Origin: Terebella lapidaria
Taxonomy: Eukaryota; Annelida; Polychaeta; Terebellida; Terebellidae
Assembly (NCBI GenBank): GCA_949152475.1
Contig: OX424570.1
Span: forward strand, 18,968,694-19,032,693
Reading direction: 5' to 3'
Length of the DNA: 64,000 nucleotides
Position numbers and translations under genes: made by a program. Of this stretch, positions 1,353 through 27,120 are shown one piece after another. Numbering within the stretch: position 1 is the stretch's first letter; each line of letters starts with the position of its first letter. Below the pieces are notes generated by a model. It did not search any database. It was not told the origin of the DNA and saw only the letters and a list, made by a program, of their open reading frames with translations.

Positions 1353-1432
1353 TTTCGTTTGAGAGCTTGGTGATCAAGCACATGGTGACATGTGACATCT
1401 AGCACGTATTTGAAGATTTTATAATTGCCTAC

Positions 1433-1572
1433 CGACGATATCACCAAGGGCAGTGTTGTGAGCGAGAGACCGGACTTTAACTAGGTGTTCAGTGCTAAAC
1501 AAACGGCGTGTGCATCATCCCAGTCCAAGTCAAAACCATAGATGTTACACACACTTCGATCTGGGCACATCC
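1433..1572 (-). pseudogene. Dead inverted copy of C-type lectin exon 2
   Basis: Read on the minus strand, this matches exon 2 of the lectin gene at 25162-25314. The start MCPD and the core IYGFDLDWDD are kept. A 13-base deletion removes the codons after the ALK/ALN position, shifts the frame and brings in a stop shortly after. The 3' boundary still reads GT but with altered bases (gtagg instead of gtgag), and the CAG acceptor at the 5' boundary has become CATG-like. No copies of exon 1 or exon 3 lie next to it, so it cannot make a lectin. It arose with the inverted duplication. Confidence 0.88.
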
Positions 1573-2199
1573 ATGTTGATAAGAAAAACAAATTGTACAA
1601 TATGGTGAATGATGTTAAAGTATTATAATATACAATATCTGAAAGAGTAATTTTGTCTATTTGTTCTGGTCCATCGGTGAGTAGAATAGCAATGGACAAT
1701 GTTCAATTACATTTTTATGTGGTCGTGGTGGTTGTGGTTGTTGTTACACGGTATATTTGTATAAATGACAAAAATAATACGAAAACCCACGTCAGTATCG
1801 ATTGATGCTTGTCTCGAACTAAAATTTAATTAAATATTTGCATGTATGTGTCTTCAAATAATTGTGAATTCACAATAATTATACGACTAATTGCATACAA
1901 CTTTCCATGTATGGAAATGAGAATGCTATGTCTTGGCCCACACATACCCTCAAGCCACTAAAAACATTGAATGAAATATGCAGTTCAATATTCATGCTGG
2001 AAGAATTTGCAATATATTCACATGCTGAATGGAACATGAACTAAGTGTATGGATATAAAAGACAACTATGAATATAAAAGACAACCCAATCCAGCCCTAT
2101 AAACCGAGCCCGCTACCTATTCTCGTAGTCCAATGTCAGGCACTCTCAAAGGAACTTCATAAACTCACATACAAAAATATAACAATAATATTGTAAAAT

Positions 2200-2345
2200 G
2201 AGGTGTTCCAAATGAGGCGAGCATTTCCCAGCCCACATGTGGCATCCGTCGTGCATTTCGATAATTGATATGTTGACAGGCCTTGTTGTATATTTGTCAT
2301 ATCTTTGGTACATTTATCAACCAGATCGTGAAGACCTCAATGGTT
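2200..2345 (+). repeat. Dispersed repeat family A copy
   Basis: The words GGTGTTCCA, GAGCATTTCC, CACATGTGGCATCCGTC and ATCAACCAGATCGTGAAG occur in the same order as in the reverse complement of 9110-9330, which has GGTGTTCCAGAAAGAGTGAGC and later ACCAACCAGATCATGATGAC. Other copies are near 7690-7830, 18600-18745, 11625-11800, 27540-27600 and 55545-55710. Ends and class were not determined. Confidence 0.5.
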
Positions 2346-2754
2346 TCTTGTAGGAAGTTATCAGTCTTGGTAAATATATCATGTTGCAGCAGTTCAGAGA
2401 CCAGCCAGGCACTTTGTTCAGTGAAGTCCTTGAATCTGTTATTTTCTCTGGAATAGCGCCGTAAAACGAACAGTATTGCGCAGCAAAGAAATGGTACTTA
2501 GGAAATGGTAACTATGGTAAAATTATAATCATCACGTCTGTTATATAATCTATTTGACAGGTTATTATCCTTATCAACGTTCAACCTCGAACGTGAATGG
2601 CTTTGAAAAAAAATGTATATTTACTTTCGATTTACTAATTTCAAATTAATTTATTTCTATTCCAAGTGATCGAACAACGTCTCGTGACACTAAGAGGTTC
2701 ACCCAGTATATTGATACACTATTAACAAATTGGATGGAATTTTTCCGGCCACAA

Positions 2755-4515
2755 GCCTGAATTTAGAATAAACTGTTAACATGATCGAGCTGTCTATATG
2801 TCATCAAATGCCGCTAGTTTTGTTTTTCTTGCCGCATACTTTTATTATAAATTACTAGGCACCCAGGTCCAGACATGACTCGGATGCGTTTAGATATAAA
2901 ACGTCAGTTTATGGCACCTACATGTGTCTGGAAAAGTGAAAACAAATCTATTTACAAGGTACCCCTAGAAGGAGCATGTACTCAGAATCAATGTTCTGCT
3001 TCCCGTATGGCCGCTTTACGCTTGACACAATGGTATCGGTAAGGTCGCCGAACATCTAGGGTACAAAATGTACCTCAATATGCTCAATGTCGGAAAATGA
3101 TACAGGCGGGTTACCTAAAATCAAGTTCAACACAAAACCTCATATGATTTTTGGCCATAACTTCCTTTAGGATGGTCGGATCAATTTGAAATTTTGTTGG
3201 TTTGCATTTGGCGTAAAACCGTATTTTTTTCACTTCACCAGAATTCAAATTTTTATCTTGAAAATTGAAACAACTGGCAATCTACTCCAATGTTAATTTC
3301 ACATCAAACATGAAACTTGTGAGTCTGAACCGATTTCGGCATAATAATCAATAATTATTCTTCAATGTTCGCATTGCATAGTACTTTGTAAAAATGATAT
3401 TTTATTATAATACATTTCTATGATTCTTCCTGCTCAATGACTTTCTTCATATTACACAATTCTCAGGGGAATAAAGATAATGAAAACACTGATTATTTGC
3501 TTGAATCCTTGTGACTTAATTCCTATCCATCACTTAACATTGGGGTAGATTGCCAACTTGTTAAGTTTTCAAGATAGAAGTGTTTTGTGAAAAATATGGT
3601 TTTGTGCCAAATGGAAACATATAATAAAATTTCAAATTGATCCGACCATCCTAAATGATGTTATGGCCCAAAATCATATGAGGATTTGTGTTGAACTTGA
3701 GTATAACACCTCCTAACATCAGGAAATGCTGTACTTTGCTCGCCGCATGTCGTGCGTTGATTCGTATTTCTCTAACGGGTCTACTTACGTTTTCGCCAAC
3801 AAATCTGCGAGAGGAAAAGGATATTCATTGATTTACTTCACCTGGGGGTCGAACGGCGATATCACATCAAATTTCTGTAAGACTTTCTAAAAAAAAATCG
3901 GGGGAAAATGTGATGGACAAAGACTGAAAAAAATGTTTGCAATCTGCGGCACTTTGGCCCCATCACGGAAATCTGAGTCCTAATACAGTTTTGTGCATTT
4001 GCTTGAGGCTCGACGTGTGATTGGAATTCACTGGAATATATCTTTTGGTTTACAATTTCAGAAACATTATTATTCTGGAATAGGATTTTTTTCCCGGTCA
4101 GACTCCTGAATTTATAATAAACTGTCAACATCATCGAGCTGTCTCCCTGTCGTCAAATCTATCATCGATACTCTGTCATCGAAAGCGTAAATCGAACAAC
4201 TATGCCGCTAGTTTTGTTTTTCGTGCCGCATACTTCTATTTTGAATAACTCGGCATCCAGGCCCAAACATGCATAGGATGCGTCTAGATATAAAGCGTCA
4301 GTTTATGGCACCTGCGCGTATCTGGAAAATTGAAACAAATCTCTTTACAAGGTATCCCTGAAAGGAACATTTGCCCAAAATCAATGCGCTGCTTCCCTAG
4401 TTCGATAAGTCACCTACGTCATATTTGTTTATGGCCGCTTTGCGCTTGACACGCTGGTTTCGGTAAGGTCGCCGATATTCTAGGGTACAATATGTCCCTC
4501 GATATACTCATTGTC
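2755..4515. repeat. Direct duplication inside arm 1
   Basis: Segments 2755-3090 and about 4095-4515 are diverged direct copies, about 1.35 kb apart. Both contain GAATTTA-AATAAACTGT, the GCCGCTAGTTTTGTTTTT block, ATATAAA-CGTCAGTTTATGG, and the GGTAAGGTCGCCGA block. Arm 2 has only one copy (about 23090-23520), so the duplication came after the inverted duplication or the second copy was lost from arm 2. The foldback element at 3113-3708 and a half-copy of the 4516-4985 foldback (about 3840-4080) lie between the two copies. Confidence 0.6.
3113..3708. mobile_element. Foldback element with ~175-bp terminal inverted repeats
   Basis: The left arm (about 3117-3293) starts TCAAGTTCAACACAAA and ends near CAATCTACTCCAATG. 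The right arm (about 3537-3705) is its reverse complement, starting CATTGGGGTAGATTG and ending GTTGAACTTGA. The loop is about 245 bp of AT-rich sequence without a coding frame. The arms differ at scattered positions and by small gaps, so this is an old non-autonomous element. The TIR length relative to the total resembles foldback MITEs. A target duplication is not clear. Confidence 0.7.
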
Positions 4516-4985
4516 GCTAACAGATCTGCAAGTGATACACCTTACGTGGAATACGATCCATACAGAATTAGAATGTTTTTTTTGCAATTGTAAACCTGAA
4601 GATACATCCCGGTGGATGAATTTCCGTGATGGGACCAAAGCTGATTGCACACTTTTTTCTCAGTCATTGGCCATCATATTTTTCCCCAATTGTTTAATGA
4701 TAGGCCTACTGAAATAGGCCTACTCAATGAACACATTGAGTTACTTCACCTGGGTCGAAGTTTGAACGGCGATATCACATCAAATTTCAGTAGGCCTATC
4801 TTTGAACAATTGGGGAAAAATATGATGGCCAAAGACTGAAAAAAAAGTTTGCAATCTGATGCACTTTGGCCCCATCACGGAAATTCTGAGTCCTAATACA
4901 GTTTTGTGCAATTACTTGATGCTCGACGTGTGATTGGAATTCACCGGGATGTATCTTCAGCGTACGGTATATCACTAGAATATAG
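4516..4985. mobile_element. Palindromic (foldback) element, arm 1 copy
   Basis: Both ends carry GAAGATACATCCCGGTG facing inward, then TTCCGTGATGG, then GGCCATCATATTTTTCCCC and ATAGGCCTACTGAAA. The right half is the reverse complement of the left, with about 190-230 bp per arm. The centre is GGCGATATC plus CAATGAACACATTGAG, a small palindrome of its own. A collinear relative is at 22560-23070 in arm 2, and a half-copy is at about 3840-4080. There is no coding capacity. Confidence 0.62.
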
Positions 4986-6730
4986 ACTTCTATTGTCACT
5001 CGAAAATCGCCTTTTCGGAAACAACAAAAAATAATCAATAATTCAGTATTCGCATTTGTTTTATTGCTATGGTGGCCATCCACAATTCACAAGAACGTCA
5101 GCCAAATTGTTGTCTGAAACGTCACGCTACAAAAGTAATCCTAAGATGTAATGAAGTCAATGAGACTACTCTACTGTTCAATAGTCCATTCGAACGCATG
5201 TAATACGTGAAGTGGGAGTGGGGGGAGGGGGGGGGGTGAGTAATAAAAAATGTGCGTATTGCTCCTGCAGTAACACGATTCATAACAAAAACAATTTGGT
5301 CAAGACTTAAAAGGAACATGGCCTGTAGACAGACATGTGACTGCATGGTTTCAACCATTATTAATGTTGCATGTTTCCAGATACGGTTGAGATGAAGGAC
5401 AAAATCATCGGCCTCTACAAACGCAGCGGCCTGAGGCAACACTCCGAGTATTTGTTTGTTTCAGATGAAGCGAATAAAAAACTGTGTTACACTCTACGAC
5501 ACACTGTTTTCTTGTAAATGTAGGCCATTTTACTTTTTTGGTAAGAATAGGACCACCGTATTCCACGTACGGTATATCACTAGAATATATACTTCTATTG
5601 TCACTCGACAATCGCCTATTCGCAAACAACAAAAAATAATGAATAATTCAGTATTCACAGTGCAATCATTGTTTTATTGTTATGGTGGCCATCCACAATA
5701 CACAAGCACGTCAGCCAAATTGTTGTTTGAATAGTCATGCTACAAAAGTAATCCTAAGATGTAATAAAGTCAATGAGATTGCTGTTCAGTAGTCCATTTG
5801 AACGCATGTTATACGTGGGTGGGTCAGTAATAATTAATGTACATGTATTGTTCCTGCAACAACAAAATACATATCGAAAGACAATTCGGTCAAGACCTGA
5901 AAGGAACATGGCCTGTAGACATACATGTGACTGCTGGGTTTCAACCATTAAAGCTATAATCACTTTTAGAATTGACAAAATGCATTCAGTCTGCAATAGC
6001 TGGATTTTGTCTATAGAATGAGAATTCGTGAAAGTTTTGGTCCGAAAATATGTATTATGTGCCTAAACTGAGTTGCAAAAATCAAGATTCAAACTCGGGC
6101 CGCATCCATTTTTTCTCAAAGCGGCCCGCGTTGCGGGCGAGTTCTACACACAGTCTTGTGACGTCATTGGTATTAGTGTAGATACTGTGGCAACCGGCAA
6201 TGGATGCAGGCCGATCATTCTCTATCCGATGTTTTCATGTACAATTAACGGCGATTTTCTGAATATCTGTCGTCGAGTTGTGCATGTTTCCTGTTTATTC
6301 CTGACAATCTCGAGATATACTTTCAAGTTTGCGTTACAAACAAGAATGCTAGATTTGACTGATTTTAAAATAGATTCCAACTTTAATAATCTTACATACT
6401 TCCAGATACGGTTGAGATGAAAGAAAAAATCACTAGATCTCCACAAAAGCAGTTACGGCCTGAGGCCAGGTTCAATGAAAACACTCCTAATATTTGTTTG
6501 TTTCAGATGAAGCAAATAATAATACACTCTACGACACACTGTTTTCATGTAAATTTACGCCATTTCGCCTTTTTGATGAGAATCGGGCCACCAATATCCA
6601 CCATTACCCCCTCTGGTCGTGCATATCTCAACAACAATGAGAACGGACTGGAACCCTATACGCTGTAAAATGAATGCATAGAAACTTAGCGAGGTATTAA
6701 AACGTCAATATTTCCCGGATAACATGTGGT
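4965..6730. repeat. Tandem duplication in arm 1 (~600-bp unit), second unit enlarged by a MITE
   Basis: Unit 1 starts at about 4965 and unit 2 at about 5566, both with CGTACGGTATATCACTAGAA. They continue in parallel through ATGGTGGCCATCCACAAT, GTCAGCCAAATTGTTGT and CCTAAGATGTAAT, and end with the GATACGGTTGAGATGAA block at 5380 and 6405. Unit 2 is longer because of a MITE at 5948-6386. Arm 2 carries one unit only (about 20480-21150 plus 22515-22590). A short exon-like block in each unit is treated among the findings. Confidence 0.65.
5948..6386 (+). mobile_element. MITE with TTAAAG-type ends, arm 1 copy
   Basis: The element starts TTAAAGCTATAATCACTTTT and ends with AACTTTAA, a short imperfect inverted repeat. 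The inner core has ACACACAGTCTTGTGACGTC and GTGGCAACCGGCAATG, shared with the inverted copy at 24692-25080. The two copies sit at different places in the two arms, so they are separate insertions and not part of the duplication. There is no reading frame of note. The TTAA-like ends allow a piggyBac-type origin, but that is only a guess. Confidence 0.55.
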
Positions 6731-6954
6731 TCAACCGAACCAATTCAATAATCATGTCCTTGTGGTGTATTAACTTCCAAAGTGAATGTTTTCGAAAGTA
6801 ATCATCGATGTACTATCTGCGACAGGAAAAAGACCAATACATTTTGTTTTTCAATGTTCTTCGTAAAGTTCTAGGGTTTATATTCCATCAACTCAGTAGC
6901 CTTTTGGCTTGTGATTAGGTACTTATGTACTTGTCATATATCTATTTCTTGAGG

Positions 6955-7205
6955 GTTTGTTTCGGATTTCTAAATTATTTTCATAAGTTGTTGGGCAGTT
7001 GTATACTAATTCCATCAGGTGTACAGTAGAAACAACTACATTTACCACACTGTCTGCCCCTGATGACGCCAGTGTGTCTTTTGATAAAGTATTTGGTCGG
7101 GCTTTGTTTCTATTGCAAAATGTTGTAGTTTACGTTTGTTATTGGAATCATCAAAATTTAGCTGTATCAGTGGTAATAGATTGATACTTACATTCATCAT
7201 TCTTC
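6955..7205 (+). repeat. Dispersed repeat family D copy
   Basis: The segment holds GGTGTACAGTAGAAACAACT, CTGTCTGCCCCTGATGACG, CAGTGTGTCTTTTGATAAAG and GTGGTAATAGATTGATACTT. Copies recur at 34690-34875 (+, with a 22-bp internal gap), 11930-12210 (-), 60300-60400 (+, partial) and 62090-62150 (+, partial). Class unknown. It could be a SINE- or MITE-like element; no A/B boxes or clear terminal repeats were seen. Confidence 0.55.
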
Positions 7206-7689
7206 TAACATCCTCAGCTAATATATATTTTTCATAACGAACTGAATATAACACAACATGACATAATTAGTTTGAAGTTACATATTAAGCTACATATTAA
7301 GCTAAAGCTAAAAATTTACCGAATAATGATAGGTGAATATTTATTATCTGAATATCACAAGACATTTTGAATATAAAACAGTGAATTTTGTATGTGCAAC
7401 ATACATAAGTACATTGTCATTTGCTCTTCCGACATGTCAAGATGCTGCTTTTGGTATCGAATTCTTCGCAAACGCTTATGACCGTAAATAGTTCATTTGA
7501 TTTGCGTTTTGGCAAATATTATTACTGTGCACAATGATTTTTGACGCAGGTGCCAAAACGCCCAATACATCATCTACAGGAGATCAGCATATTGGAATTC
7601 GTTCCCAATCCACTGATCCCGCTCAGTACATCATGGTCAAGTGTTCGTGATTATTGTTATATTGTTTTCATATAGTAATCTACCTTACA

Positions 7690-8560
7690 TGTATTTCAAA
7701 AATACTTGCAGCATGCTTGCTTGCATATTGATTTTTATGCAATCCATAACGACTGTCACGTGTGGCGCAGTAAATGTTCACTCTTTCCAAAACACGTAAT
7801 TTTGCTTCCATTATAATGACCACGCACCACAGAATCAGGCATGGGTGATCGAGTATCAGAATTGAGATGTATGTACCACAATAACGAAGAGATGATACTC
7901 TCTCTGGTGGTATAAAATTCAACTTTCGTTCATGACTTGGATGAAGTTATGTTGATTCGAAGATTGCAATCGCTGCTGTATTGATTCTGAAAAACTGGCG
8001 TCGAAGTCGGATATCACCCACAAAATGACATTTTACTCATATTTTGACAACGGGTTTTCTTGATCACCAGTCTTCATTCTTCAAAACTTATAATGAAATT
8101 GGTATCAGAGAAAAGAGCAAGACGTTCATCATTCACTCTGCAACAATCATAGTTGTATTGAATAAAAGTATTTCTCTTGACACACAGGGAGTGTTAAAAA
8201 TATATACATTTTTGATGTTTTCACCAGTAAATTAAAATTTATTATGACAATTTACAATCAACTCATTACAATCAATTTACAATTTACAATCAAATGAAAT
8301 TTCAGTAATTATCGGGTGGAGACTCCAATAATTTGTTGTAGAGCCTTCTCCCAATAAAATGATAACAAAAAATCATTTTGACCAAAATGAGTATTTTTAA
8401 TGTATTTTCCCCTGTATTATGAAATCAATATTTGCGACTTATGCATGATTTTGTGGTGCGGGGTATATTATGACCATATGGGTTCTTGACTTCAGATCGT
8501 ATAACGGAGTCTGGTTTCTGTTCGCTCAGAATACTTCATATCTGGGTATTGGCAGTCACT
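7690..8560 (-). repeat. Family A copy in arm 1, split by a ~650-bp insert
   Basis: On the minus strand, 7690-7825 matches family A (GTTTTGGAAAGAGTGAAC, GACAGTCGTTATGGATT). The match to arm 2 breaks at about 7825 and resumes at about 8470 (GACTTCAGATCGTATAACGG). The break points carry similar inverted words (TGGTGCG and CGCACCA regions near 7830 and 8450). The intervening ~640 bp is AT-rich, has no gene, and has TTTACAATCAA repeats near 8250-8290. Confidence 0.42.
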
Positions 8561-9109: not shown

Positions 9110-9520
9110 GAAGTTCGCATATTAAGCGCGGACTCATGACCAGACTCCAACCAGCACATTCCTATGGACGTCCTATGGACGTCATCATGATCTGGTTGGT
9201 AAATACAGCAAATCCATGTCTGCCATGCATATAGATCTATTTTCATGTTAATTTTGGGGAATTCATGACGGGTGCCACTAGTGGGCCAGGAAATGCTCAC
9301 TCTTTCTGGAACACCTGATTTCACCTCCTAATGGCCATTCTTGGGGGTTCATGAGTTTCCCTGTCATTTGTGTTTTCTCTCACTTCGTATGCCTGATATG
9401 ACTTTCTGTCCCCGGACTATGGGATTGGATAACGGACCCTGTTTTGTTTGCTCGGAATACTTAATACTGGGTATTGATTCCACGTCTATGATGCCTTCTC
9501 AGCGTCTGTACCACATTAGG
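9110..9520 (-). repeat. Dispersed repeat family A, long copy
   Basis: On the minus strand this has the longest run of family A: an end with ATCAATACCCAGTATTAAGT, a core with ATCCAATCCCATAGTCCGGG and AGGAGGTGAAATCAGGTGTT, then CAGAAAGAGTGAGCATTTCC and GGCACCCGTCATGAAT. The first part (9330-9520) is in near-perfect inverted relation to 11625-11800, so these two copies flank the PIF/Harbinger remnant head-to-head. Whether they are parts of one composite element is not known. Confidence 0.55.
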
Positions 9521-10799: not shown

Positions 10800-11400
10800 T
10801 ATAATAGATTTTATCAAGCGGATATTCGTCGCCTGGTGAGCGTCCTAGACATACCCGACAAAGTTAGCAGTAAAGACGCTAGCGGACACTGGCCTCTCAA
10901 ATTGGTTGTGCCACATAACATCGTTGTTTGGCTGCTCTGAACAGGAACTGTACGAAATATTTTTTCTCATCTTAAGTGAGTATTGTGCTGCCGTCCAACG
11001 CAAAGGATCTCCAATGGACACTCTTTTGGGTTTCGTCGATAGCACATGTACACCTATGTCGAGACCCGATCGTCACAGGCGTGTACTGTGGAGTTCCAAA
11101 ATACCTTCAAACCGAATAGTCTGACGCGTGGAAGGACCCAGACCACGACACATTCATGTTGAGAAAGTCCCGTCTGGTGGACAGGATGGCACATCATATA
11201 ATATACGGAGATCAGGGAGACCCAATATCGAACCACTTGATATCGCCCTTCAAAGGGGCATATTTGAGTGAAAAACGTGATGTCAAATATATGCGAGAGC
11301 GTTGAATGGAAATTCAAGGACAACTCAGGAGTTGGATATAACACACTCACCTAACCGCTAGTCAAACAAAACCAAAACGGCCGAATCTGTTGCCCGCATC
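10800..11400 (+). pseudogene. Decayed PIF/Harbinger transposase (DDE_Tnp_4 type)
   Basis: Pieces in several frames follow the order of PIF/Harbinger transposases. First comes an N-terminal DIRRLVSVLDIPDKV (about 10815-10860). Next is AAVQRKGSPMDTLLGFVDST (around 10985-11045), whose GFVD holds the first catalytic aspartate. Then come a piece with DTFMLRKSRLVDRM and IIYGDQGDPISNHLISPFKG (11145-11260, second aspartate region GDPAYP-like), and an RER/EW-like end near 11295. In the family these residues cut and paste elements with 3-bp TWA targets. Several frameshifts and stops leave it non-functional. A 1360-bp element with TTA target duplication lies at 21153-22512 and could be a dependent of this superfamily; that is inference. 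Confidence 0.82.
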
Positions 11401-11624: not shown

Positions 11625-11800
11625 TCCTGTTACATCATCATGCTATAGACGTGGAATCAATACCCAGTATCAAGTATTCCGAGCAAACAAAACAGGGTCC
11701 GTTATCCAATCTCATAGTCCGGGGACAGAAAGTCATATCAGGCATACGAAGTGAGAGAAAACAAAAATGACAGGGAAACTCATGAACCCCCGTAAAACTT
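11625..11800 (+). repeat. Family A copy, inverted partner of 9330-9520
   Basis: It carries ATCAATACCCAGTATCAAGT, GTCCGTTATCCAATCTCATA and GACAGGGAAACTCATGAACC in the orientation opposite to 9330-9520, with only scattered differences. A related segment continues at about 12230-12370 (TGTCCGGCAAAATTGAGAAA, AAGGAGGTGAAATCATCTG). Confidence 0.55.
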
Positions 11801-12479: not shown

Positions 12480-13080
12480 CAACAACTACGTGGCTTGATG
12501 CAGCTTTCGCTAAACTCACCATGTATGGACCATCACGGATGTCCCAGAACAGGAACTTGTCCGGCTCATTCAACTGTGTGTGCTTCACGGACTGGTTTGA
12601 GCATCATTTCCTCCCCACACACAACGTCTGCACATACCCATTGTTCTGATAGGTGACAATTTGTTGAGCCATTTCACCCTGAGAGTCATCCAGCTTTCTG
12701 AAGAGCACAACATCAAGTTCATGCGCTTGTCCGAAAGCGCAACCCATATATTGCAACCACCTGATGTAGCTTTCTTTTGGCCCTTGAGAATCAAACAGGG
12801 AGCTATCATGACAAGACGGAGAACTGAAAAAAAACGATCGTGGTCCAAGCCTGCTGAAAGAAGTCAACCTTGAGATCTGTGGTACAAAACAAGCCTGAGG
12901 CACTGGTGAATGGTCTCGAGAAGTCTACCCAGTGGACAGGTTAAAGGGTCCGAGAGGTTGCCAATCCTTATACACCATTGACTCCAGAAGATAATGCTCA
13001 AGCGAATCAGGACCAGGTTCCAGTGAACAGCCCACAAGCTGTGTCAGTTATCCTGGTTGATATGTTGAGAGGAAACAATA
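12480..13080 (+). pseudogene. Decayed pogo/Tigger-type transposase (DDE_1 domain)
   Basis: Pieces in order: a stretch ending FTDWFEHHFLP (about 12585-12615), then after a frame change VLIGDNLLSHFTLRVIQL, SEEHNIKFMRLSESATHI and LQPPDVAFFWPLRIK (12640-12800). These match the pogo/Tigger DDE_1 core, where GDN holds the second catalytic aspartate and the THxxQPxDVAFF block follows. A proline/glutamine-rich end (about 12970-13070) fits the C-terminal part. It is cut up by frameshifts and stops, and no terminal repeats were found. Frames on the minus strand here are shadows of it. Confidence 0.8.
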
Positions 13081-14000: not shown

Positions 14001-14005
14001 TAACA

Positions 14006-14412
14006 ATGTAGGGTTCGGCGACCCCACGATAAAGAGGTATACCCCATTACTGGAGTGTCACCGAATGTCTTATAAATCCGCCCACATTGCAGCATCATAA
14101 CCGTGGTGTCACTACTCGCGCACACCACGTCATAACGCTACAGTGTTTCCCCTTTCGGAGAGACCTCGTGCCTAAGGTCAGCTATATCCCACTTTTGAGC
14201 CATATCACAGGCCACATCGAGCCACGAACAAAATAGGGGTTAGGGGGAAAACAGTGATTCGAAAGGTACGGCACCAATGTAGGGTTGGGCGACCCCACAA
14301 TAAAGAGGTGTACCCCACTACTGGAGTGTCACCGAATGTCTTATAATTCCGCCCACACTGCAGCATCACAACCGTGGTGTCACTACTCGCGCACACCACG
14401 TCATAACGCTAC
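14006..14412. repeat. Two direct copies of a ~140-bp repeat, 268 bp apart
   Basis: Copies at 14006-14152 and 14274-14412 share ACCCCA-ATAAAGAGGT, GGAGTGTCACCGAATGTCTT, CCGCCCACA-TGCAGCATCA and GTGGTGTCACTACTCGCGCA with few differences. The spacer holds no gene. The second copy runs on into unique sequence and a perfect hairpin at 14504-14541. The class is unknown. Confidence 0.75.
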
Positions 14413-14503
14413 AATAACGGATAGTGATACGCGACCTCAATGTACCCCACCACCTCTTATTGTACAGCGTACATTTACACTCAGTGTACAATGAATAAAA
14501 AGA

Positions 14504-16079: not shown

Positions 16080-16950
16080 CTCTTATAGGATATCCACTGT
16101 CAACTTTTATTCAGGATTTGAGTCCCCTATTTGCTTCGGGCTTGTCGAAGTTATAGGCCTTCGAGCATAAAAACCTGATGTCATGCAATAACGTTACAGT
16201 ATATGATGATTGTTGACCACGTTTTATTGTGCAAAAGCAGTATTTGAGTTTAAAGGCACTATATTAATAATGACATATCTTTTCATTTGTGAATCGAAAA
16301 GTAATCACGGTTTTGATGTGAATGTGTAATCTAATACGATCTAATACAATTCCTCGTGTTTACTGAACGTGTTCTAGATTATGCAATATCAGGGGCATGT
16401 CGTACATGCTAGACAATTTCCGTATCAGTTTATGTAAGAGGCATTGTTTCAGCTTTTGTGAACATAAACATGTTTCCTAAAGGCCGGTTCTCCCCATAAG
16501 AAAATGCCATAAAAAATCTTGTAACATATTGGGTAATTGGCATCTCATGAGACATGGATATCACAAGGTAATACAATGTCATGAGACAAACATGAACTTG
16601 ACATTAAAACATGTAGTTCCAACTGGATGTACCGTTGTGTACATGTATAAATATGTCACAGTTTTCGAAATCACAGGAACTTACACATGTATTCACAGAA
16701 CAGTGCTATCTGCTTTGCGATACTAGCAATCGTTTTTTAACAATTGTAATCAGATAAAAATGTACGACAGCTTTAAAAAAGACATCACGTGATGAGAACT
16801 ACTAGTATATGGGTTTACACAAGCTGTACTGTAGAGCCAATTTCAGCTAAACTGTGAAAGGCAGGCTGGCATTTATTAAGTGGAAGAGTAGTATTAAGGC
16901 ACAGGCTTTGGTACTTGGGACCTATTTGTCACATTATTGTTGAGCACATA
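16080..16950. other. No gene seen
   Basis: AT-rich spacer. The longest open frames are short and show no domain. No repeat match elsewhere in the window was noticed. Confidence 0.45.
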
Positions 16951-17078: not shown

Positions 17079-17670
17079 CTCTCTTTTGGAAAATTTTTCA
17101 AGTTTATTTTTTTATTGTCATCACTAAAATCTCGTTGCGATGGTCGTAATTATATCGATCCATATCCCTGGTACGTTTCTGACAAAGGGAATATTAAATC
17201 TAATTTTAGGGTGACTACGAAACCACTACATATGTAGTGGTCTTAATCCTTTGATCTACCGGCATGAATCAATTACCTCACACAGAATTTGGACCAGCGG
17301 AAACAAACTTCTCCAATGTTATTTGGAGTATTGTTTATTTGCAAAGAATGCAGGGCTCTTCATTTCAAGGTGACCGATTGTGTTTCGCGCAAAATCTATT
17401 GTTTTTATCCTCGTTCCGATTTCTGGACAATTGAATAGATGCTTATTTTAGCACATGTGACCAACAATAAGGAAAATCCATACACGAATATTCATTGACA
17501 ATGCAATGAATGAATTGACGCGGGGTAATTCACAACAGTCCCTACCATCGATCATTCTCTACCAATTCATCAACCAATATACACGAACAGGCATTGTCAA
17601 TCAATAAGTTACCTCCAGTCCCGAGCCAGGTTCTGATTTCGAGACAAACGTGGGATTCATTCTGGGCCAG

Positions 17671-17883
17671 CCAATGTTCCCAGCCGATGTCATCAGCCAA
17701 TCGGCGCAGTTGTCTTCCGTTCTATCGGGGCACAGTTTGTAGAATACAGTGCACTAGCGATTGGGAGACATAGCACTGACTCGTCGTATGGTCTAAACTT
17801 GTCTGCGTGTGGGTGGCAGGCGCATATCATCTAAATATCCTAAATGAATGTGGTACATAATGTGACAATTAGGAAAATATATA
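17671..17883 (+). promoter_or_regulatory. Candidate promoter of the lectin gene (two CCAAT boxes, TATA)
   Basis: Two CCAAT words (17671-17675 and 17697-17701) sit 26 bp apart in a locally GC-richer stretch. A TATATA word follows at 17878-17883, about 105 bp before the start codon at 17988. This order and spacing suit a RNA polymerase II promoter with a transcription start near 17910. The TATA-like AAGTATAAAAC at 17976 is too close to the ATG to serve. The CCAAT block overlaps an exon-like frame on the other strand (17613-17753), so one of the two readings may be wrong. Confidence 0.4.
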
Positions 17884-17987
17884 CGAAAACTTGAAAACCC
17901 AAAACTACTTATATTACCATAACGGTAGTAACTAAAAGCAGCACAAGGACGACTCCGAAATCAATATCGATAAAAGTATAAAACAAC

Positions 17988-18285
17988 ATGGAAAGATATG
18001 TGCTTATGTGGATTTTAGGCAGTGGAGTAATATGTTACGTTCGTGGTAATATACTGAACTTGAGATTCAACTCACTCTACGGGAAGAACATGAAATCCCC
18101 GAAGTTAGTTCTGGATACGTACACAGGATTCAGTAAGTGGGATTGTGCCAAGGTCTGCAACGGCACGTGTGAAGGATTCAACTATTATTCTGTGATTAAG
18201 ACATGTGAACTGCTGGAAGAACCTTCATACCCATCTTCAATGCTGAGCCAGAGTGACGTCACGTACTATGAAAGGCTCGATCATA
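17988..18285 (+). CDS. Lectin gene exon 1: signal peptide and PAN-like module
   Basis: It codes residues 1-99 plus one base of codon 100. The donor ATA|GTAAGT is near consensus; the frame stays open only a few codons past it. Five cysteines lie between residues 53 and 73. This exon is not present in the inverted copy at 1.4-8.6 kb, because the duplication starts inside intron 1. Confidence 0.8.
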
Positions 18286-21200
18286 GTAAGTGGTAGCAAA
18301 CATTTCAAATTGCATCGTTTCAAATTAATCACACATATTTCGGCCATGACGGACAAATAAAACTTTCATGGTGTATTTATTCGAAGTTTGTATAAATGGT
18401 TCTGAAGTATGACATCGTTCCATTGTTATATGTTATTTTTAACGAATTTAGCTTTACCGCGTATGTAGCAGTTTTTGTCAGATTGTTTTGCTGGTGGACT
18501 GCTAAAATACCGTTTGTCGAAGTATTTGAAATACAGAAGTGATTTTGAGATTAAATCCCTAGAAAACATTGAATGTATAAACATGAAACCAATACCCAGG
18601 TATGAAGTAATCCGAGCGAACAGAAACCAGATTCCGTTATACGATCTGAAGTCCAGAACTCCTATGGTCATATGGAAGCGAAACTACGTGTCCTGGAAAG
18701 AGTGAGCGTTTCCTGCCCCACACTTGACAGCCGTTATGGATTCCGGAAAAAAAATATGCTAGTAATCGTCCTGTAAGGACTCTTTGAAATTAGGTAGATT
18801 ACAAGATGGAAACAGTATAACAATAATCACGAACACTTGACCAATGGATGTATTGAATGGGATCATTGCATTGGGAACGCATTCCAATATGCTGATCTTT
18901 TGGATATGGTGTACTGGGCGTTTTGGCACCTGCGTTAAAATCATTGTGCACAGTATGAATTTTGTACGGCCATAAGCGTAGGCGCTGAATTCGATTCCAA
19001 AAGCAGCATCATGACATGTCGGAAGAGCAAATGGCAATGTAGTTCCGTGTATTGCACGTACAAAAATGTCCTGATTTTAAACTCAAACTTTATGAAGGAT
19101 ATAATGCAATACCAAATGTGTCCCAAGTACCATACCCTGCAGTTTTCCTCTATTTTCAATAAGGAATGAAAAAGTGCGAAACGAAATAAATGGTATTTTG
19201 TCAGTGGACGAGTAGTAGAAAGGAGCAGTGTACGTTACATGGGCACAAAATGTAATGTTTTGTTTCCCTGGAGCGAACAATTTCATCTATTTTCACTCTC
19301 GCCCCAGTAGGGGGGGGGGAGGGGGGGTATTGCATTTGGGTCTCTCTCCCTGTCTGTCTGTTTGTCTGTCTGTCCGCGCACATAACTCGGAAATAAATGG
19401 TCCAATCGATGTGAAATTTATAGGGATGAAGCAGTATGTCAGTGGCTCGGTCCTCCCCAAACTTTGTCAAAATCGGATAAAAACGGTTGCCATGGCAATG
19501 GAAAACGTGAAAATCACATAATTGGCTCTAACTCCTGTTCTACTTGATATTAATTTTTCAAACTATTTTCTGTATTTTTCTTTGGACAATTCCCGATCGT
19601 ATGGTATACGACCGACGGTCGTACGACGAAAGCTCTCCATTATCGCCAGATGTCGAAAGTTGGGGGGCACGATTTCGAATACTTTTTGCGAGCGACGTTT
19701 CAGTGGAATTGTCTGCACTCATAACTCAAAGGCAAACGGTCCGATGGATCTGAAATTTATAGGGCTTGAGTGCTATGGAAGTGGCTCGGTCCCGTTCGAA
19801 TTTTGTCAAAATCAAATAAAAACAGTTGCCATGGCAACGGAAAAAACAAAATCACATAATTGGCTAAAACTCCGGTTCTAATCAATATTGAATTTTCAAC
19901 TTTTTTGTATTTTTCTTTGGCCACTTCCCGATCGTATGGCGTACAACGGATGGTTTTAAGACCAAAACTCTCAATTATCGCCCAAAGTCTAAAATTTTGG
20001 GGTCACGATTTTATTTCTTGTGGGTGTTCTGAGATTCGAGACCATATTGTGAAGCCAGTTATCAATCTGTTCGAACTGTTTTCATTCATGAGATGTCCCT
20101 TGATAATAGAAACTTACGGTGAAATTTTACAGCTCAATAATGAGCGACAAGGTCAAGGTCACAGAAGAGGTCAAAAATAGAAAAGTTGCAATAACTCCGT
20201 TTATATTCATGATTAATTTTCCCTAATCATTTTTTGTGGTCAGTTTTCCATCATTTGCTATATGACCAATGGTCGTACGAGCAAAATTCCCCATTATCGC
20301 CCCAGGTCGAGAATGTGAGGGTCATCAGCTGAAATTACAAGTTCATAGTATTTCAAGTAGTAATAATTCAGAAATCAATAGAAATTTTCATCTGATTGTC
20401 TCGTTTATTTTGAAAACATTCACTTTAGAAGTCAATGCATCACAAGGACGTGATTATTTAATGGGTTCGGTTGATCAACGTGTTATCCGGGAAATATTGA
20501 CGTTTTAATACCTCGCTAAGTTTCTATGCATTCATTTTACAGCGTATAGGGTTTCAGTCCGTTTTCATTGTTGTTGAGGGAAAGCACACCCAGAGGGGGT
20601 AATGGTGGTTGTCGGTGGCCCGATTCTCATCAAAAAGGCAAAATGGCGTAAATTTACATGGAAACAGTGTGTCATAGAGTGTATTATTATTCGCTTCATC
20701 TGAAACAAACAAATATTATGAGTGTTTTCATTAAACCTGGCCTCAGGCCGTAACTGCTTTTGTAGAGGTCGCATGATTTTTTCTTTCATCTCGACCGTAT
20801 CTGGAAACATGTAAAATTATTAATGGTTGAAACCTTGCTGTCACATGTATGTCTACAGGCCCTGTTCCTTTTAGGTATTGACCAAATTGTCTTTTGATAT
20901 GTATTTTGTTATTGCAGAAACAATACATGCACATTATTACATGTACATGTACAAATTATTACTGACCCACCCACGTATTACATGCGTTCAAATGGACTAT
21001 TGAACATTAATCTCATTGACTTTATTACATCTCAGGATTACTATTGTAGCGTGACGATTCAAACAACAATTTGGCTGACGTTCTTGTGTATTGTGGATGG
21101 CCACCATAGCAATAAAACAATGATTGCACTGCGAATACTGAATTGTTCATTAGGCCAAAAAAAAAAATGTTTTGGTTTGCGTCCCAGTGATGCTCCGAAA

Positions 21201-24200
21201 TCGGTGCTATGGCGCTTTTTTTTTTTTTGAGTACCGGTTCATGTATTATTTTTTTGCATAAAGTGTGCTTGTACCATATTTTTTTTCTGGACCAGTAAAA
21301 ATATATATTTATTCAAAGTCTATTGGACCTACGAGGCTGATTTAGGACACCCCGAAAAAAGAATTTGTCGTCATTTCAAGAAAATTGTTTATGACAGCAA
21401 AAAAATATTGTTTTTTATCTCGTCCTGCCGATTTAAATATCTCATTATTTCAAAATAATTATGTCGTTATTTCGAGATAATTAAGTCATCTCGTTAACTC
21501 GAGATAGTATCTCATTATTTCGAGATGATTATGTCGCTACATTGTCTAACATTGAGATAGTATAGTTATATAGGACTCCAAAAAATACTGTTTTTATCTC
21601 GTTATTTTGAAATAGTTACCTCGTTATCTCCAAATAACGAGATAATGATTTCGAAATAACGAAACACTATCTCGAAATAACGAGATAGCTCTCGAAATAA
21701 CTAGATAACTATCTCGAAATAACGAGATAAAAAACATTTTTTTTTGGTTTCCTATATAATTATCTCAAAATACACGATGAAATAAATTTTTGCACGTCCT
21801 TAATCAGCCACAGTATGGATCAAATAACGAGTGGAAAATAGTAATTGATAACAGAATTAATAAAAAATAGTCATGTAATAAAAAAAAGTCATAAAATAAC
21901 TAAATAAAAACAAACGAAAAAATGTTTACTTTGAAAACTTTGGCAGACTCTCGTTACAACATATATCAACGATATAAACTTGTATTGTTTCTAAGCAAGA
22001 GTGTCTATATTGCCAAGCATGCAACTACCTATGTCTGTATGAAACAAGTTTCTCACGAAGCGGTTCACTGGGGGTGATGTTTTAATCAATGACAAGTGGA
22101 CGGGGCTCGTATGGAAAGTTAGGTGTCATTACTTCCGCGGCAATGGACTATGCTAGTGTCAGAATTTGAAAAATCATTTTCCGGACGACTCTCCTTCTCG
22201 ATCTCCTTGTTTTGAGCCAGTGTGGATATAACGACCAACAAATATCTTAAAAACGAATCTGTAAAGTACTAGTATTAGGTTGCTAGTTGATTGGTTTGTA
22301 GCTTTCACAGTTAAACGCCTGATTGGTTCCTGCAAGATTGCAATCCTGGACAGTCACTAATACAGCCACTTTGAGGACGCTCATCGACTTGCACAGATTT
22401 AAAATGTGGCCGCTGCTTGTAAAATACCATCATGGCAAAAAAAAAATCTGACGCGGGAGGTTTGAGACGACGCGCGCGGGAACGCAAACCAAAACATTTA
22501 TTTTTTTTGGCCTTATTTTTTGTTGTTTGCGAATAGGCGATTGTCGAGTGACAATAGAAGTCTATATTCTAGTGATATACCGTACGCTGAAGATACATCC
22601 CGGTGAATTCCAATCTCACGTCGAGCATCAAGTAAATGCATAAAACTGTATTAGGACTCAGAATTTCCGTGATGGGGCCAAAGTGCATCAGATTGCACAC
22701 TTTTGTCTCAGTCTTTGGCCATCATATTTTCCCCCATTTTTTTTAAAGATAGGTCTACTGAAATTTGATTTGATATCGCCGTTCAAACTTCGACCCAGGT
22801 GAAGTAACTCAATGTGTTCATTGAGTAGGCCTATTTCAGTAGGCCTATCCTTAAACAATTGGTGAAAAATATGATGGCCAATGACTGAGAAAAAAGTTTG
22901 CAATCTGCTGCACTTTGGCCCCATCACGGAAATTCCGAGTCCTAATACAGTTTTGTGCATTTGCTTGAGGCTCGACGTGTGATTAGAATTCACCGGGATG
23001 TATCTTCAGGTTTACAATTGCAAAAACATTCTTATTCTGTATGGATCGTATTCCACGTACGGTATATCACTTGCAGATCTGTTAGCGACAATGAGTATAT
23101 CGAGGGACATATTGTACCATAGAATATCGGCGACCTTACCGAAACCAGCGTGTCAAACGCAAAGCGGCCATAAATAAATATGACGTAGGTGACTTATCCA
23201 ACTAGGGAAGCAGCACATTGATTTGGGGCAAACGTTCCTTTCAGGGGTACCTTGTAAAGAGATCTGTTTCCATTTTCCAGATACGCGCAGGTGCCATAAA
23301 CTGACGCTTTATATCTAGACGCATCCTATGCATGTTTGGGCCTGGATGCCTAGTTATTCAAAATAAAAGTATGCGGCACGAAAAACAAAACTAGCGGCAT
23401 AGTTGTTCGATTTACGCTTTCGATGACAGAGTGTCGAGGACAGATTTGATGACACGTAGACAGCTCGATGATGTTGACAGTTTATTATAAATTCAAGAGT
23501 CTTACCGGTAAAAAAATCCTATTCAAATTGTAAACAGGGTATTATTGTACTGGGTGAGCCTCTTAATGTTCGATACGCTGTTCGATTACTAGGAAAAGAA
23601 AGTGAAGTTAATGTAAAATTAATCATTCGAAAGTAAAGACACTACACATAGATTCTTCTTATTTCTCACAGCCATTCAGATCCGAGGTTTGTCAATGTCA
23701 GATGTCAATTAGTTTATATGACAGACGTTATAATATTACCATAATCAGTTGCCATTTTCTAACCATTCGTTTGCGTTTATTATACTGTTAATTTTACAAC
23801 GCTATTCCAGAGCTAGTTACCGATTTAAGGCCTTTACTCAACAAAAGTGCCTGGCTGGTCTCTGAACTCCTGCAACAAGATTAGGGTTTAATATATTCCC
23901 GGTTTTCCTGGAACCGGATCCCATATTTATGTATGGGAGTTCATCAAGTTCCTTTGAGAGCGCCTGACTTTGGAAAGTAATTTTTGTTTCAGAGCAATGA
24001 CTCGTATGAATGGACAGTAAAATTTGTTGTCTTTCACTGCAAATTCACTATCACATTTATGGATTCGGCCATGTAGCTGAACTTGCAAGTTATCTTACGA
24101 GGAAATACATCATAGATCTGTCACATAAACAATTATATGGTAGGATATCACATGACACGATACAAACGGATGTACACCCTTTGTCTTGTATGAAATATTC

Positions 24201-27120
24201 CAACATAAACAGCACATAGTGAATGAAATTAGTCCCGTTAAGCATTATTTGTTTCCAAAACCAAGAAGGGAGGGGAGGGGGGGGGGGGGAGGGGAGGGGC
24301 ATGTGTGCTGCTACATCCAGGATGTACTACTTTGTAGAACTATGATGGTGTGTACGGGCCGAAGACATGGCACCGCCACTTTTATACTCTCATAAATGGA
24401 ACACTGTATATATTGTGAATAGACAGCTATTTGAAAGAAAAAATTCTCAACAAAAGCAGAAATATCTTTTATTAAATTATATCTATAGACAGGCAACAAT
24501 TGGCAATGACATCGTGGGTTTTGCTATTACATTTATTTCCATCAGTTATACAAATGAACGTGTAACAATAACTACGGCCATTAATAAATGCAGTTGATAA
24601 TTGTCCATGTCTAGTCCATGGCTAGTTACAATTGGATCAGAACAAATACTAAAAATATGTCCCTTTTCAGACACTTTATCATGTAGTACTTTAAAGTTGT
24701 AATAAATTTCAAAATCAGCCAAATTTAGCATTCTTGTTTGTCACACAAACTTGAAAGTACATGTCGAGATAGTCGGAAATATATAGGAAATATGCAGGAA
24801 ATCGTACATGAAAACAGTGGATACAGAATGATCGGGCTGTCTACATTGCCGGTTGCCACAGTATCTAGACAAATACCAATTACGTCATGAGACTGTGTGT
24901 AGAACTCGCCCGCCGCTTTGAGGAAAAAATTGATGCGAAATAGACTGGCCCGAATTTGAATGTTGATTTGGCAACTCATTTTTAGACCCAAATTTGTACA
25001 ATTACTCATTTTATTGACAACAAGAAGATACCGCAGAATGGATAAATTTTGAAAATTCCAAAAGCGATCATAGCTTTAACACCATTCGCCCTAGGCTATT
25101 GGATTTGAATTATGTAACATACAACACTCTCACCATAACAAGTTGTTGTTTATCATCACAGGGATGTGCCCAGACCAAGGTGTGTGTTACATCTATGGTT
25201 TCGACTTGGACTGGGATGATGCAGACGTCGTTTGTTCAGCCCTGAAACCTGGTCGCTCACACCTAGTCAAAGTCCGCTCTCTCGCTCACAACACCGCCCT
25301 TGGTGATATCGTCGGTGAGCCATTATAATATTTTCATATACGTTCGCTTGTTATCACATCAAAGTCGATCGTAAATTTTAAGCATAAAAATGTGGACGAC
25401 AACAACGACGGACGCAACGTCAGGCCAATAGGTTATCGGTCCAGAGGTCCGGTAACTTAAAAATGCCAGAAAAAGTGTTGGAGGACGTGCCATTGGTAAG
25501 AAAAACCTTCCGATTAACCAAGTGATGGTTGTTTCATATTTGAACACATGTCATGTGTGTGTTGTACTCGGAATGATTGATCGCATTAAATTTAGATACA
25601 CTGAGGATTAATTTCATGTTTCTTTTATATTGGATGAAATGAGTGACAGAAGCTTTGGAAGAATACAAGATTGATGATATTCTGATTGTGAAATATTCTG
25701 TATTGTGCTGTCATATTTTCTGACTGAAATTGAACATTGGCGTGATATTTATCTTCAGCAAGACTCAGTGTATTTGTGATTTTCCATCCTTTGCTAAAAA
25801 TAAATCCATGTTCGGATGAGTTTCAGTAAACAAGTCACAGTTTAGAATTCTGGGTTACAATGATATGTGATTGAATAACTGCCACCTGCTGTCACTTACC
25901 ACCAAAAGTTCCTATTTTTCTGGATGTTGGTTGAGTTAAAAAAAAAATGTTCGGAATAGCACACCGAACATTTTATTCTTATGAATTCACAATATCGACT
26001 CCATGTTCTTTTCATTCGCATAGTAATATGTCGAAAGGCCCATTTCGTCAACAAGAAATCAATGATATGGAATGACATTCCATTTGCAAATCACTGAAAT
26101 AAGCTGTTTTTTGTTTTTCGTACGATATTGAACGACGAGAATATCTATCAAATCGAGTGACTTTTTGGTGACATTCTTGAGGTGTATCCCTGTTGTTTTC
26201 ATGTTCTACGACGATCTATTGTACACGATTTTTTTTCTGACCATCTTGAAAACTGCTCACCAGGTAGTTTCGATATTGATTCCTTCAGAATATTTCTATG
26301 AAATTTCATATTTTGTGAGAATAACGTGCATACTACATTTTGTACATTGCGAACTATGTACGACATTATGCTTTAGCAATGTACATTTTGGCGTTTAGGA
26401 CAAAAGTTGATGTGAACAAAGTCAGTCATTGTGAGCAAGTGTTATATTATATTGAATTCGAACGACAATAACACTGCAAGGATAAGGCTGAAAGACGAAA
26501 TGTATCTCAACTAGCAAATGGAAAAATTGGAGAAAGTAGCGAGGACAATAACATTACAACTGGAAGTATTGTCAAGTTCTCCAAAATAGATTGCAACAGT
26601 AACTACAGAATGTTCTGGAAATAGAATCTCATCAATAGCGATAGTAAACAAAGGATACTATTGAAAATGAATGTATTGTATATATGACTGTGTCACTTTG
26701 AAAATGACAATACAATCGGTTGTGGGTAACATATCACACTGGGTCAATAGAATGTGGCAGATTTTGCTAAAAAAAAAAAAACATCATAAACATTACCTTC
26801 GCTGATACACAGCTATGTTTTCACTCATTTATTTTTTCGTTGATATTTTTATTTTCCACATTTACCATCCTTCGACAGAGAGCTTTCCACCGGAGACCAG
26901 TTTCTGGACTGGCGGTCGTCGCCCAGATGGTGGCGGTCAATTCGAGTTCTACTGGACTCACAACAATGAACCCTTCTCATACACCAACTGGCACACTGAC
27001 AGTAACCAACCATGGGAGACTGACCCCGATCACGACTGTGTCAGTGGCTATAAATTCTGGGACTGGAAGTGGAATGACTGGCGATGCTGGCAAAGGAATA
27101 TGTACTTCTGCGAACTGTAG
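17988..27120 (+). CDS. Secreted PAN/apple-like plus C-type lectin domain protein (three exons)
   Basis: Exons 17988-18285, 25162-25314 and 26879-27120 join in phase 1 at both junctions and give 230 residues. Residues 1-20 are a signal peptide (hydrophobic LMWILGSGVICYV). Residues about 21-99 hold a cysteine-bearing PAN/apple-like module (CAKVCNGTCEGFNYYSVIKTC). Residues 102-228 form a C-type lectin-like domain. It has an extra N-terminal pair C102 and C108, canonical cysteines C124, C204, C220 and C228, W188 in SYTNW, and a WND motif at 215-217. The usual EPN or QPD sugar motif is not clear (NQPW instead), so calcium-dependent sugar binding is uncertain. The protein is probably extracellular, a candidate pattern-recognition or adhesion lectin. 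Intron 1 (6.9 kb) is swollen by the arm 2 repeats. The start is the first ATG, directly before the signal peptide. RNA evidence is not available here. Confidence 0.85.
18600..18745 (+). repeat. Family A copy in lectin intron 1
   Basis: The run reads ATACCCAGGTATGAAGTAAT, CAGATTCCGTTATACGATCT, TGTCCTGGAAAGAGTGAGCG and GACAGCCGTTATGGATT. It matches arm 1 at 8480-8560 and 7690-7825 inverted, and more distantly the copies at 9.3 and 11.7 kb. It therefore predates the inverted duplication. Confidence 0.55.
19225..20400 (+). repeat. Tandem-unit repeat family C (~339-bp unit, two full units plus a partial)
   Basis: A CTGTCTGTCTG tract (about 19345-19372) precedes CATAACTCGGAAATAAATGG at 19381. The second unit starts CATAACTCAAAGGCAAACGG at 19720. 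Shared words include GAAATTTATAGGG, TTTTGTCAAAATC, GGTTGCCATGGCAA and CACTTCCCGATCGTATGG-like text. A diverged part follows at 20130-20330 (GCGACAAGGTCAAGGTCACA), and the same part recurs at 32565-32795. A poly-purine G run lies at 19306-19327. The block is missing from arm 1, so it was inserted after the inverted duplication or lost from arm 1. No coding function is apparent. Confidence 0.62.
20480..20815 (-). repeat. Exon-like conserved block, arm 2 copy
   Basis: On the minus strand this matches 6405-6720 and, less fully, 5375-5570. It begins after CATGTTTCCAG with GATACGGTCGAGATGAAA. It has an acceptor-like TTTGTTTGTTTCAG in the middle and an open stretch DEANNNTLYDTLFPCKFTPF that runs on for about 30 codons. 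No protein family was recognised. It is part of intron 1 of the lectin gene but antisense to it. Confidence 0.35.
21153..22512. mobile_element. Non-autonomous PIF/Harbinger-like element with TTA target duplication
   Basis: The left end is GGCC followed by an A run and then ATGTTTTGGTTTGCGT. The right end is the inverted GGGAACGCAAACCAAAACAT with the T run and GGCC. The terminal repeats are about 34 bp. TTA flanks both sides (21150-21152 and 22513-22515). Arm 1 gives the empty site: around 5030-5045 the same flanks join with a single TTA. A 3-bp TTA duplication with GG-starting ends fits the PIF/Harbinger superfamily. There is no transposase frame inside. A palindromic ATCTCG array (21330-21835) is nested in it. 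Confidence 0.8.
21330..21835. repeat. Nested palindromic array of ATCTCGTTATTTCGAGAT type
   Basis: The words TATCTCGTTATTT and AAATAACGAGATA occur many times on both strands between about 21417 and 21735, so the region is self-complementary and could fold into cruciforms. Ends near 21340 (GGCTGATTTAGGAC) and 21805-21820 (inverted CTTAATCAGCC) look like imperfect terminal repeats, so this may be an element inserted into the 1360-bp one. A faint relative (CGAGATAATTGTCAACATTG) is at about 33340. Confidence 0.65.
22560..23070. mobile_element. Palindromic (foldback) element, arm 2 copy
   Basis: It has the same organisation as 4516-4985: inward-facing GAAGATACATCCCGGTGAAT ends, CCGTGATGGGGCCAAAGTGC, GGCCATCATATTTTCCCCC and the central AATGTGTTCATTGAG. 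Its presence at collinear positions in both arms shows the insertion is older than the inverted duplication. Confidence 0.62.
24692..25080 (-). mobile_element. MITE with TTAAAG-type ends, arm 2 copy
   Basis: On the minus strand it starts TTAAAGCTATGATCGCTTTT and ends near AACTTTAAAG. It shares ACACACAGTCTCATGACGTA, the GTGGCAACCGGCAATG core and GACAAACAAGAATGCTA with 5948-6386. It lies only ~80 bp upstream of lectin exon 2 and therefore close to its splice acceptor. Confidence 0.55.
25162..25314 (+). CDS. Lectin gene exon 2: N-terminal half of the C-type lectin domain
   Basis: The acceptor TCATCACAG and donor GTGAGC bound 153 bases, residues 100-150 (MCPDQGVCYIYGFDLDWDDA, then VVCSALKPG and LVKVRSLAHN). 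It corresponds to the first beta strand and first helix of the lectin fold, with C108 and C124. Its dead copy at 1433-1572 differs by a deletion and substitutions, while this one keeps an open frame, as expected for a functional exon. Confidence 0.88.
25362..25465 (-). mobile_element. Short end-fragment of the GGTTACCGG-ended transposon
   Basis: On the minus strand: AAGTTACCGGACCTCTGG, CCGATAACCTATTGGC, GTTGCGTCCGTCGTTGTTGT and GTCCACATTTTTATG, the 5' end of the copies at 57274 and 62428. Only the first ~100 bp are present. It lies in lectin intron 2, right at the outer limit of arm 2. Confidence 0.7.
25466..26878. other. Rest of lectin intron 2; nothing further seen
   Basis: AT-rich intron sequence. 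No open frame with a signature and no repeat matched elsewhere. A short A run precedes the acceptor region near 26770. Confidence 0.5.
26879..27120 (+). CDS. Lectin gene exon 3: C-terminal half of the C-type lectin domain, with stop
   Basis: The acceptor TTCGACAG precedes 242 bases, residues 151-230: SFWTGGRRPDGG, FEFYWTHNNEPFSYTNW, then DPDHDC, the WND motif in WKWNDWRC, and NMYFCEL before TAG. WTGG, W188, WND and the last two cysteines fit the C-type lectin fold. An alternative reading frame over the same bases is open for about 99 codons but has no family signature. Confidence 0.88.

Follow-up and report, generated by a model that had tools for sequence, protein, structure and literature searches.

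The window analysed here is a stretch of 64,000 nucleotides from the annelid Terebella lapidaria, corresponding to positions 18968694-19032693 of contig C17 (OX424570.1) in a genome of 761.6 Mb. It carries three exons between 17988 and 27120 which are predicted to form one gene for a protein with a PAN-like domain and a C-type lectin domain. The exons were found using tblastn and the splice sites were read off the sequence. The joined protein matches the Pfam family Lectin_C (E value 7e-10), and the start of exon 1 resembles a signal peptide by eye. Two long arms of similar sequence in inverted orientation are associated with this gene, arm B within it and arm A upstream of its first exon. Both are located at 18.97-18.99 Mb of the 28.6-Mb contig, which extends on both sides.

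The arms were compared using BLASTN (E value <= 1e-3), yielding 16 inverted matches. Eleven of these line up in inverted order between arm B at 18589-25359 and arm A at 1390-8552, in agreement with the original prediction, which had placed anchors in reverse order between 1390-8555 and 18595-25365. The order of the series steps back where arm A exhibits second copies of a block termed K and of 22513-22591/20613-21152, and one further match (A 3826-4044) is a second match to a palindrome, termed E. The remaining four fall outside the series. Three of them (24681-25079/5948-6397, 18577-18654/9414-9489 and 18664-18758/9244-9338) are dispersed repeats, and the fourth (19109-19250/8751-8893), which is seen again near 16854-16928 in a comparison within the window, is likely one as well. 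Strict chaining (E value <= 1e-5, with the reversed but not complemented sequence as control) resulted in an inverted chain of 8 anchors with a score of 3217, a direct chain of 2 anchors with a score of 366 and none in the control. When 105 pairs of blocks across the window were compared, the highest score of a pair not overlapping both arms was 466. The aligned blocks total ~4.0 kb of columns, counting twice those stretches of B that are doubled in A. The arms fit an interstitial inverted segmental duplication, the shared sequence being inverted, largely collinear, of greater length than any one repeat and not accounted for by dispersed repeats.

Searches of the whole genome show which part of the shared DNA is special to this locus; the match counts are lower bounds, as very common words were skipped. 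B 20408-21152 has four matches, namely itself and three places in arm A (2 of 2 candidates scored). For the query 23045-23885 (40 of 43 candidates scored) 3 of 40 matches lie at the locus: apart from itself, B 23045-23702 has counterparts at just two places, both in arm A, and the remaining 37 matches all begin no earlier than query base 659, within a repeat at 23703-23885. The first ~200 bases of 18560-19100 belong to a dispersed repeat, termed R, beyond which the scored matches (40 of 667 candidates) include only the query itself and arm A. The matches listed for 23525-25360 (40 of 2595 candidates scored) are filled by the repeat 24691-25079 and are uninformative for the rest of that stretch. 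Because intron DNA unique in the genome is common to both arms, dispersed repeats do not explain them. The original prediction had named the opposite outcome, independent repeats with no unique intron sequence in common, as the one that would speak against it. The coordinates of all features are summarized in Table 1.

Table 1. Features of the lectin locus and of the two inverted arms (positions in the window).
Feature	Position	Strand	Evidence
Arm A, inverted decayed copy of intron 1, exon 2 and start of intron 2	1390-8552	-	BLASTN, chain test, divergence table
Dead copy of lectin exon 2	1434-1570	-	alignment; two frames in tblastn
Old copy of B 23077-23881 including old K	2378-3101	-	BLASTN, divergence table; Kimura two-parameter (K80) distance ~0.19-0.21
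Dispersed element with ~170-bp inverted ends, arm A only	3115-3706	.	genome search, 40 of 1942 candidates scored
Young copy of B 22587-23524 (K and most of E)	4078-4960	-	~95% identical
First copy of B 22586-22513 and 21152-20613 (X)	4961-5558	-	BLASTN, divergence table
Template-switch-like junction	5557-5581	+	25 bp identical to B 23047-23071, + orientation
Second copy of B 22586-22513 and 21152-20408 (X), split by mobile element	5566-6797	-	BLASTN
Short element of the same family as 24691-25079, arm A only	5948-6386	-	empty site in arm B
Dispersed element splitting R repeat, arm A only	7820-8465	.	genome search, 40 of 80 candidates scored
Lectin exon 1 (predicted)	17988-18285	+	tblastn; PAN-like domain; Pfam PAN_1 E value 4e-4, just under cut-off
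R, dispersed repeat at inner end of arms	18577-18759	+	genome search, within-window comparison
Arm B, copy within lectin gene (intron 1, exon 2, part of intron 2)	18589-25963	+	BLASTN, tblastn, genome search
Mobile element, arm B only	21149-22516	+	inverted ends GGCCAAAAA..., TTA target duplication, empty sites
E, palindrome with base (16-bp inverted repeat), lectin intron 1	22570-23071	+	genome search, folding
Short dispersed element, arm B only	24691-25079	+	empty site in arm A
Lectin exon 2 (predicted)	25162-25314	+	tblastn; first part of C-type lectin domain
Lectin exon 3 (predicted)	26879-27120	+	tblastn; rest of C-type lectin domain

The copy of exon 2 in arm A is frameshifted by a 13-bp deletion, and its acceptor AG is changed while the donor GT is kept. 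Where aligned, this region is 88% identical to exon 2 with its borders, compared to 78% for the nearest long intron block; a higher identity of the exon is expected if only the exon in B is constrained. The view of the original prediction that a true inverted duplication had carried along intron 1 and one exon of the lectin gene is supported. With exon 2 broken in arm A and neither exon 1 nor exon 3 found copied beside it, there is no sign of a new lectin. A switch between alternative exons by inversion between the arms was considered and rejected as a working switch, since the copy is frameshifted, has lost its acceptor and has no copy of exon 3 found with it. Moreover arm A is located upstream of exon 1, hence lectin transcripts that begin at exon 1 would contain only one of the arms, and a hairpin between the arms in such a transcript was judged unlikely.

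At the inner side the alignment of the arms stops at B 18589 and A 8552, placing the inner limit near 18560-18589. Relatives of R are found in the spacer between the arms at 9343-9489 and 11645-11791, and the inner junction is too worn to read. The outer ends had been predicted at 1390 and 25365. Yet homology between the arms resumes left of the start of the window: intron 2 DNA at 25827-25963 matches C17:18967521-18967659 in inverted orientation with 76% identity, lying 1,035-1,173 bases upstream of position 1, where arm A would be expected to continue in order. Apart from itself, the query 25470-27420 matched only this place and, with a 55-bp piece of exon 3, contig C15 (3 of 3 candidates scored). 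The outer limit of the duplication is located beyond 25963; with homology continuing on the far side of 1390 and 25365, these positions do not represent breakpoints.

The original prediction also proposed that both outer ends touch pieces of one transposon ending in GGTTACCGG. Each strand carries this motif a single time, the plus strand at 62429 and the minus strand, as its reverse complement, at 63813. The stretch 25362-25470 resembles 57268-57365, 62426-62513 and 28379-28437; for each of these none of 300 shuffles of two-base blocks was as good. Against 1-1352 it scores only 13 (plus) and 17 (minus), reached by 93 and 3 of 300 shuffles, respectively, and the better-scoring stretch comprises 30 bases at 452-480, which is not at an element end. 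When 1-1352 was searched in the genome, the scored matches (40 of 2647 candidates), leaving aside the query itself, were confined to 1-350; 1-1352 is not one element. The two supposed pieces are unrelated and the shared transposon was dismissed. The same holds for a gene fragment captured by a transposon, as 1-1352 and 25362-25470 are unrelated and homology extends past both. Upstream of the window, positions 4001-5140 of the stretch L085 look coding and by eye resemble a tyrosine recombinase of a mobile element; the frame that was tried held stops.

Five mobile-element insertions explain much of the gaps between the arms, and empty sites are visible for three of them. The element 21149-22516 is missing from both arm A copies of its site and has dispersed relatives, several of full length, with 80-97% identity (40 of 532 candidates scored). 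It exhibits inverted ends together with a 3-bp target duplication of the TWA type. In its ends, which start with GGCC, and its TTA duplication it is like non-autonomous DNA transposons of the PIF/Harbinger type, of which it is a candidate member. The elements 24691-25079 and 5948-6386 are independent insertions of one dispersed family. Either all five postdate the first duplication, or they have disappeared from one arm leaving no trace; the empty sites for three of the five favour insertion.

Divergence between the arms is uneven. The identity at aligned sites is 95.3% for K (515 sites) and 95.0% for E (343 sites). In contrast, the old copy of K reaches 83.4%, the outer blocks 77.7-88.5% and the inner intron block 85%. 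The 74 bases beside E (22513-22586) are 98.6% identical in the second A copy and 95.9% in the first (A 4961), X is 91-93% identical to B in its second copy and 89.7% in its first, and a remnant of E at A 3826-4077 shows 87-89%. Taking K, E, 22513b and X as young blocks, 102 of 1669 sites are mismatched versus 316 of 2056 in the old blocks (chi-square 78). For K alone the young copy has 24 of 515 mismatches and the old copy 60 of 361 (p 7e-9). A three-way MAFFT alignment of K yielded 95.1% between B and the young copy, 81.9% between B and the old copy and 81.6% between old and young; for X the respective alignments gave 92.7% versus 83.0% (X1) and 91.3% versus 88.6% (X2). Young and old K coexist in arm A with uneven divergence, and K and E were transferred between the arms in a step that followed the first event. 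This later copying is solid for K and E only, while X may have shared in it. It probably ran from B to A, which is simpler as A holds the extra copy.

The palindrome E is located in lectin intron 1. Its core (22587-23035) has 9 genome matches, 7 of them at the locus and 2 weak and short ones elsewhere (5 of 5 candidates scored). Together with its base E is predicted to form an RNA hairpin of -312.6 kcal/mol (z -31, none of 100 shuffles as stable), and the lectin pre-mRNA would carry this ~0.5-kb palindrome. At the junction 5557-5581 in arm A, 25 bases equal B 23047-23071 in plus orientation, and from A 5566 onward arm A follows B in minus orientation starting at 22586. The two parts of the junction share the 16-bp inverted repeat (22571-22586 and 23056-23071) that flanks the base of E. 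This suggests template switching: synthesis would have proceeded up to the base of E and continued on the opposite strand for a further nine bases, leaving the junction. Two of these nine extra bases also fit the neighbouring copy of X. It is conceivable, though rather doubtful, that E acts as a self-spreading rearrangement site, whereby its hairpin would cause breaks that are repaired on the opposite arm with switches at the base. If so, copies of E and its neighbours would build up locally without any transposase.

Very probably the locus represents an interstitial inverted segmental duplication which later decayed and in which part of B was recopied into A without replacing the old copy. 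This reading draws on what is observed directly, i.e. the duplication with its unique content, the dead exon, the empty sites, the uneven divergence and the doubled blocks. A stretch from ~0.3 kb past exon 1 through exon 2 into intron 2 would have been copied in reverse and placed upstream of the gene, so that exon 1 and the DNA preceding it stayed single as a spacer. Arm A is presumably the copy and arm B the source, since B carries the intact gene, and a fold-back or a replicative template switch near R may have been the first event. During the decay that followed, the exon copy died and both arms gained separate transposon insertions. Later K and E, possibly also X, of arm B would have been copied again into arm A with the old copy kept, by repair of a break in A through synthesis on the opposite arm and subsequent end joining. 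Palindrome E may have promoted such later breaks.

Several points weigh against this history. The inner breakpoint of the first event lies within a dispersed repeat, and the outer one would lie beyond 25963. The old and young groups were set after the identities were seen, and the test omitted 23923-23974 (88.5%), 22513-22586 versus A 4961 (95.9%) and the R pieces (84.9% and 91.7%). The 84-base piece of R at the inner end, with its 91.7% identity, misfits a simple arrangement of young centre and old flanks. Moreover the two X copies are similarly far from B (60 of 737 versus 51 of 494 mismatches, p 0.23), hence two clean ages for the X blocks are unsupported. The similar distance of the X copies, as well as the uneven identity along the arms, which is typical of conversion, would also fit a single inverted duplication after which the arms exchanged sequence by ordinary gene conversion; the second copies of K and X in A would then be old tandem repeats that B has lost. 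We regard this as a possible but clearly less likely course: arm A keeps the old K adjoining the young K, the old blocks are collinear without the young ones, and extra losses in B are needed.

Alternatively, the whole gene might have been duplicated head to head and the second lectin gene might later have lost exons 1 and 3. The homology passes exon 2 into intron 2, so that the copied stretch is longer than first thought, and a dead exon 2 at the right place fits a decayed gene copy. Nonetheless this is unlikely, given that exon 1 with its upstream DNA (17140-18560) has a single genome match, itself (1 of 1 candidates scored), and that exon 3 DNA matches only itself and the 55-bp piece on C15; no DNA-level copy of exon 3 was found on C17 in the genome search with 25470-27420, nor any copy by tblastn in the 8 kb upstream of the window. 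Distant relatives of exon 3 at protein level are located at 14.01 Mb of C17. Misassembly can in general yield inverted duplications, for example when two haplotypes or a palindromic read are joined inverted, but such an artefact is very improbable here. The arms differ by 1-22% in aligned blocks, mostly by more than 5%, which exceeds what haplotypes usually show, and at least five separate transposon insertions distinguish them. A coincidence of independent dispersed repeats in both regions may be practically neglected: 24691-25079/5948-6386 and 18577-18759 are indeed dispersed repeats, and this account was accepted for three of the 16 matches and is likely for a fourth, but as a whole it was rejected in view of the shared unique intron DNA, the shared exon and the largely conserved order.

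An interstitial inverted duplication with later recopying is an ordinary, known kind of genome rearrangement, here with an unusually readable history. In a report on human germline fold-back inverted duplications, 21 of 21 sequenced junctions exhibit a spacer, of 766-70,466 bp, and three junctions have homologous copies of long or short interspersed elements (LINE or SINE) at their edges (PMC3907307). The lectin locus is similar in that two inverted copies enclose a unique spacer in the kilobase range. Its spacer comprises ~10 kb and consists partly of repeats; within it, 17140-18560 was matched once in the genome. Fold-back of a broken end predicts an inverted copy and a unique spacer, which the present layout fits. 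However, the human cases described there are very large and accompany terminal deletions, translocations or rings (PMC3907307), whereas the duplication at the lectin locus spans a few kb and is interstitial and old with a worn junction. No terminal deletion or translocation was found next to the arms, as the 28.6-Mb contig continues on both sides.

For double-strand breaks in yeast, a second report describes cases in which a pair of sequences derived from a single locus was inserted in inverted orientation, ascribed to microhomology-mediated template switching (PMC11724301), which the junction at 5557-5581 resembles. The local foldback insertions described there are mostly ~5-34 bp long (PMC11724301), compared to blocks of ~0.8-0.9 kb here without the later insertion; unlike the yeast insertions, the present case concerns an animal genome and is deduced from sequence only. 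By title no comparable locus was evident among the papers found, the search being too narrow to claim absence. The locus provides a small, layered case of an inverted duplication forming and then being rewritten, in which the empty sites of transposon insertions let events be ordered and the later copying leaves a readable junction beside a palindrome.

The spacer had been predicted to hold exon 1 of the lectin gene and transposase debris. Exon 1 is located there as described, while the debris is based on a weak match to DDE_1 at 12601-12873 (E value 0.001, below the cut-off). A second piece at 10849-11124 matched no Pfam family. The relatives of R at 9343-9489 and 11645-11791 are 147-bp inverted copies with 98% identity, flanking ~2.2 kb; they may mark the two termini of a fairly young DNA transposon akin to R. 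Moreover the spacer contains a direct repeat of 139 bp with 95% identity (14004-14142 and 14275-14413).

Outside the locus the lectin protein has more than 100 further matches on other contigs, e.g. C14, C11, C5 and C16 (150 of 335 candidates scored). They mostly concern the C-type lectin part and are often clustered, and the genome thus seemingly holds a large lectin family. Just downstream of the lectin gene, 28493-29196 carries putative minus-strand exons of a PR/SET-domain protein, of which 28493-28798 matches PRDM2_PR (E value 2e-22) and the remaining part was assigned by eye. Further downstream, long open frames at 37208-41787 by eye resemble a non-LTR (long terminal repeat) retrotransposon with putative endonuclease and reverse transcriptase.

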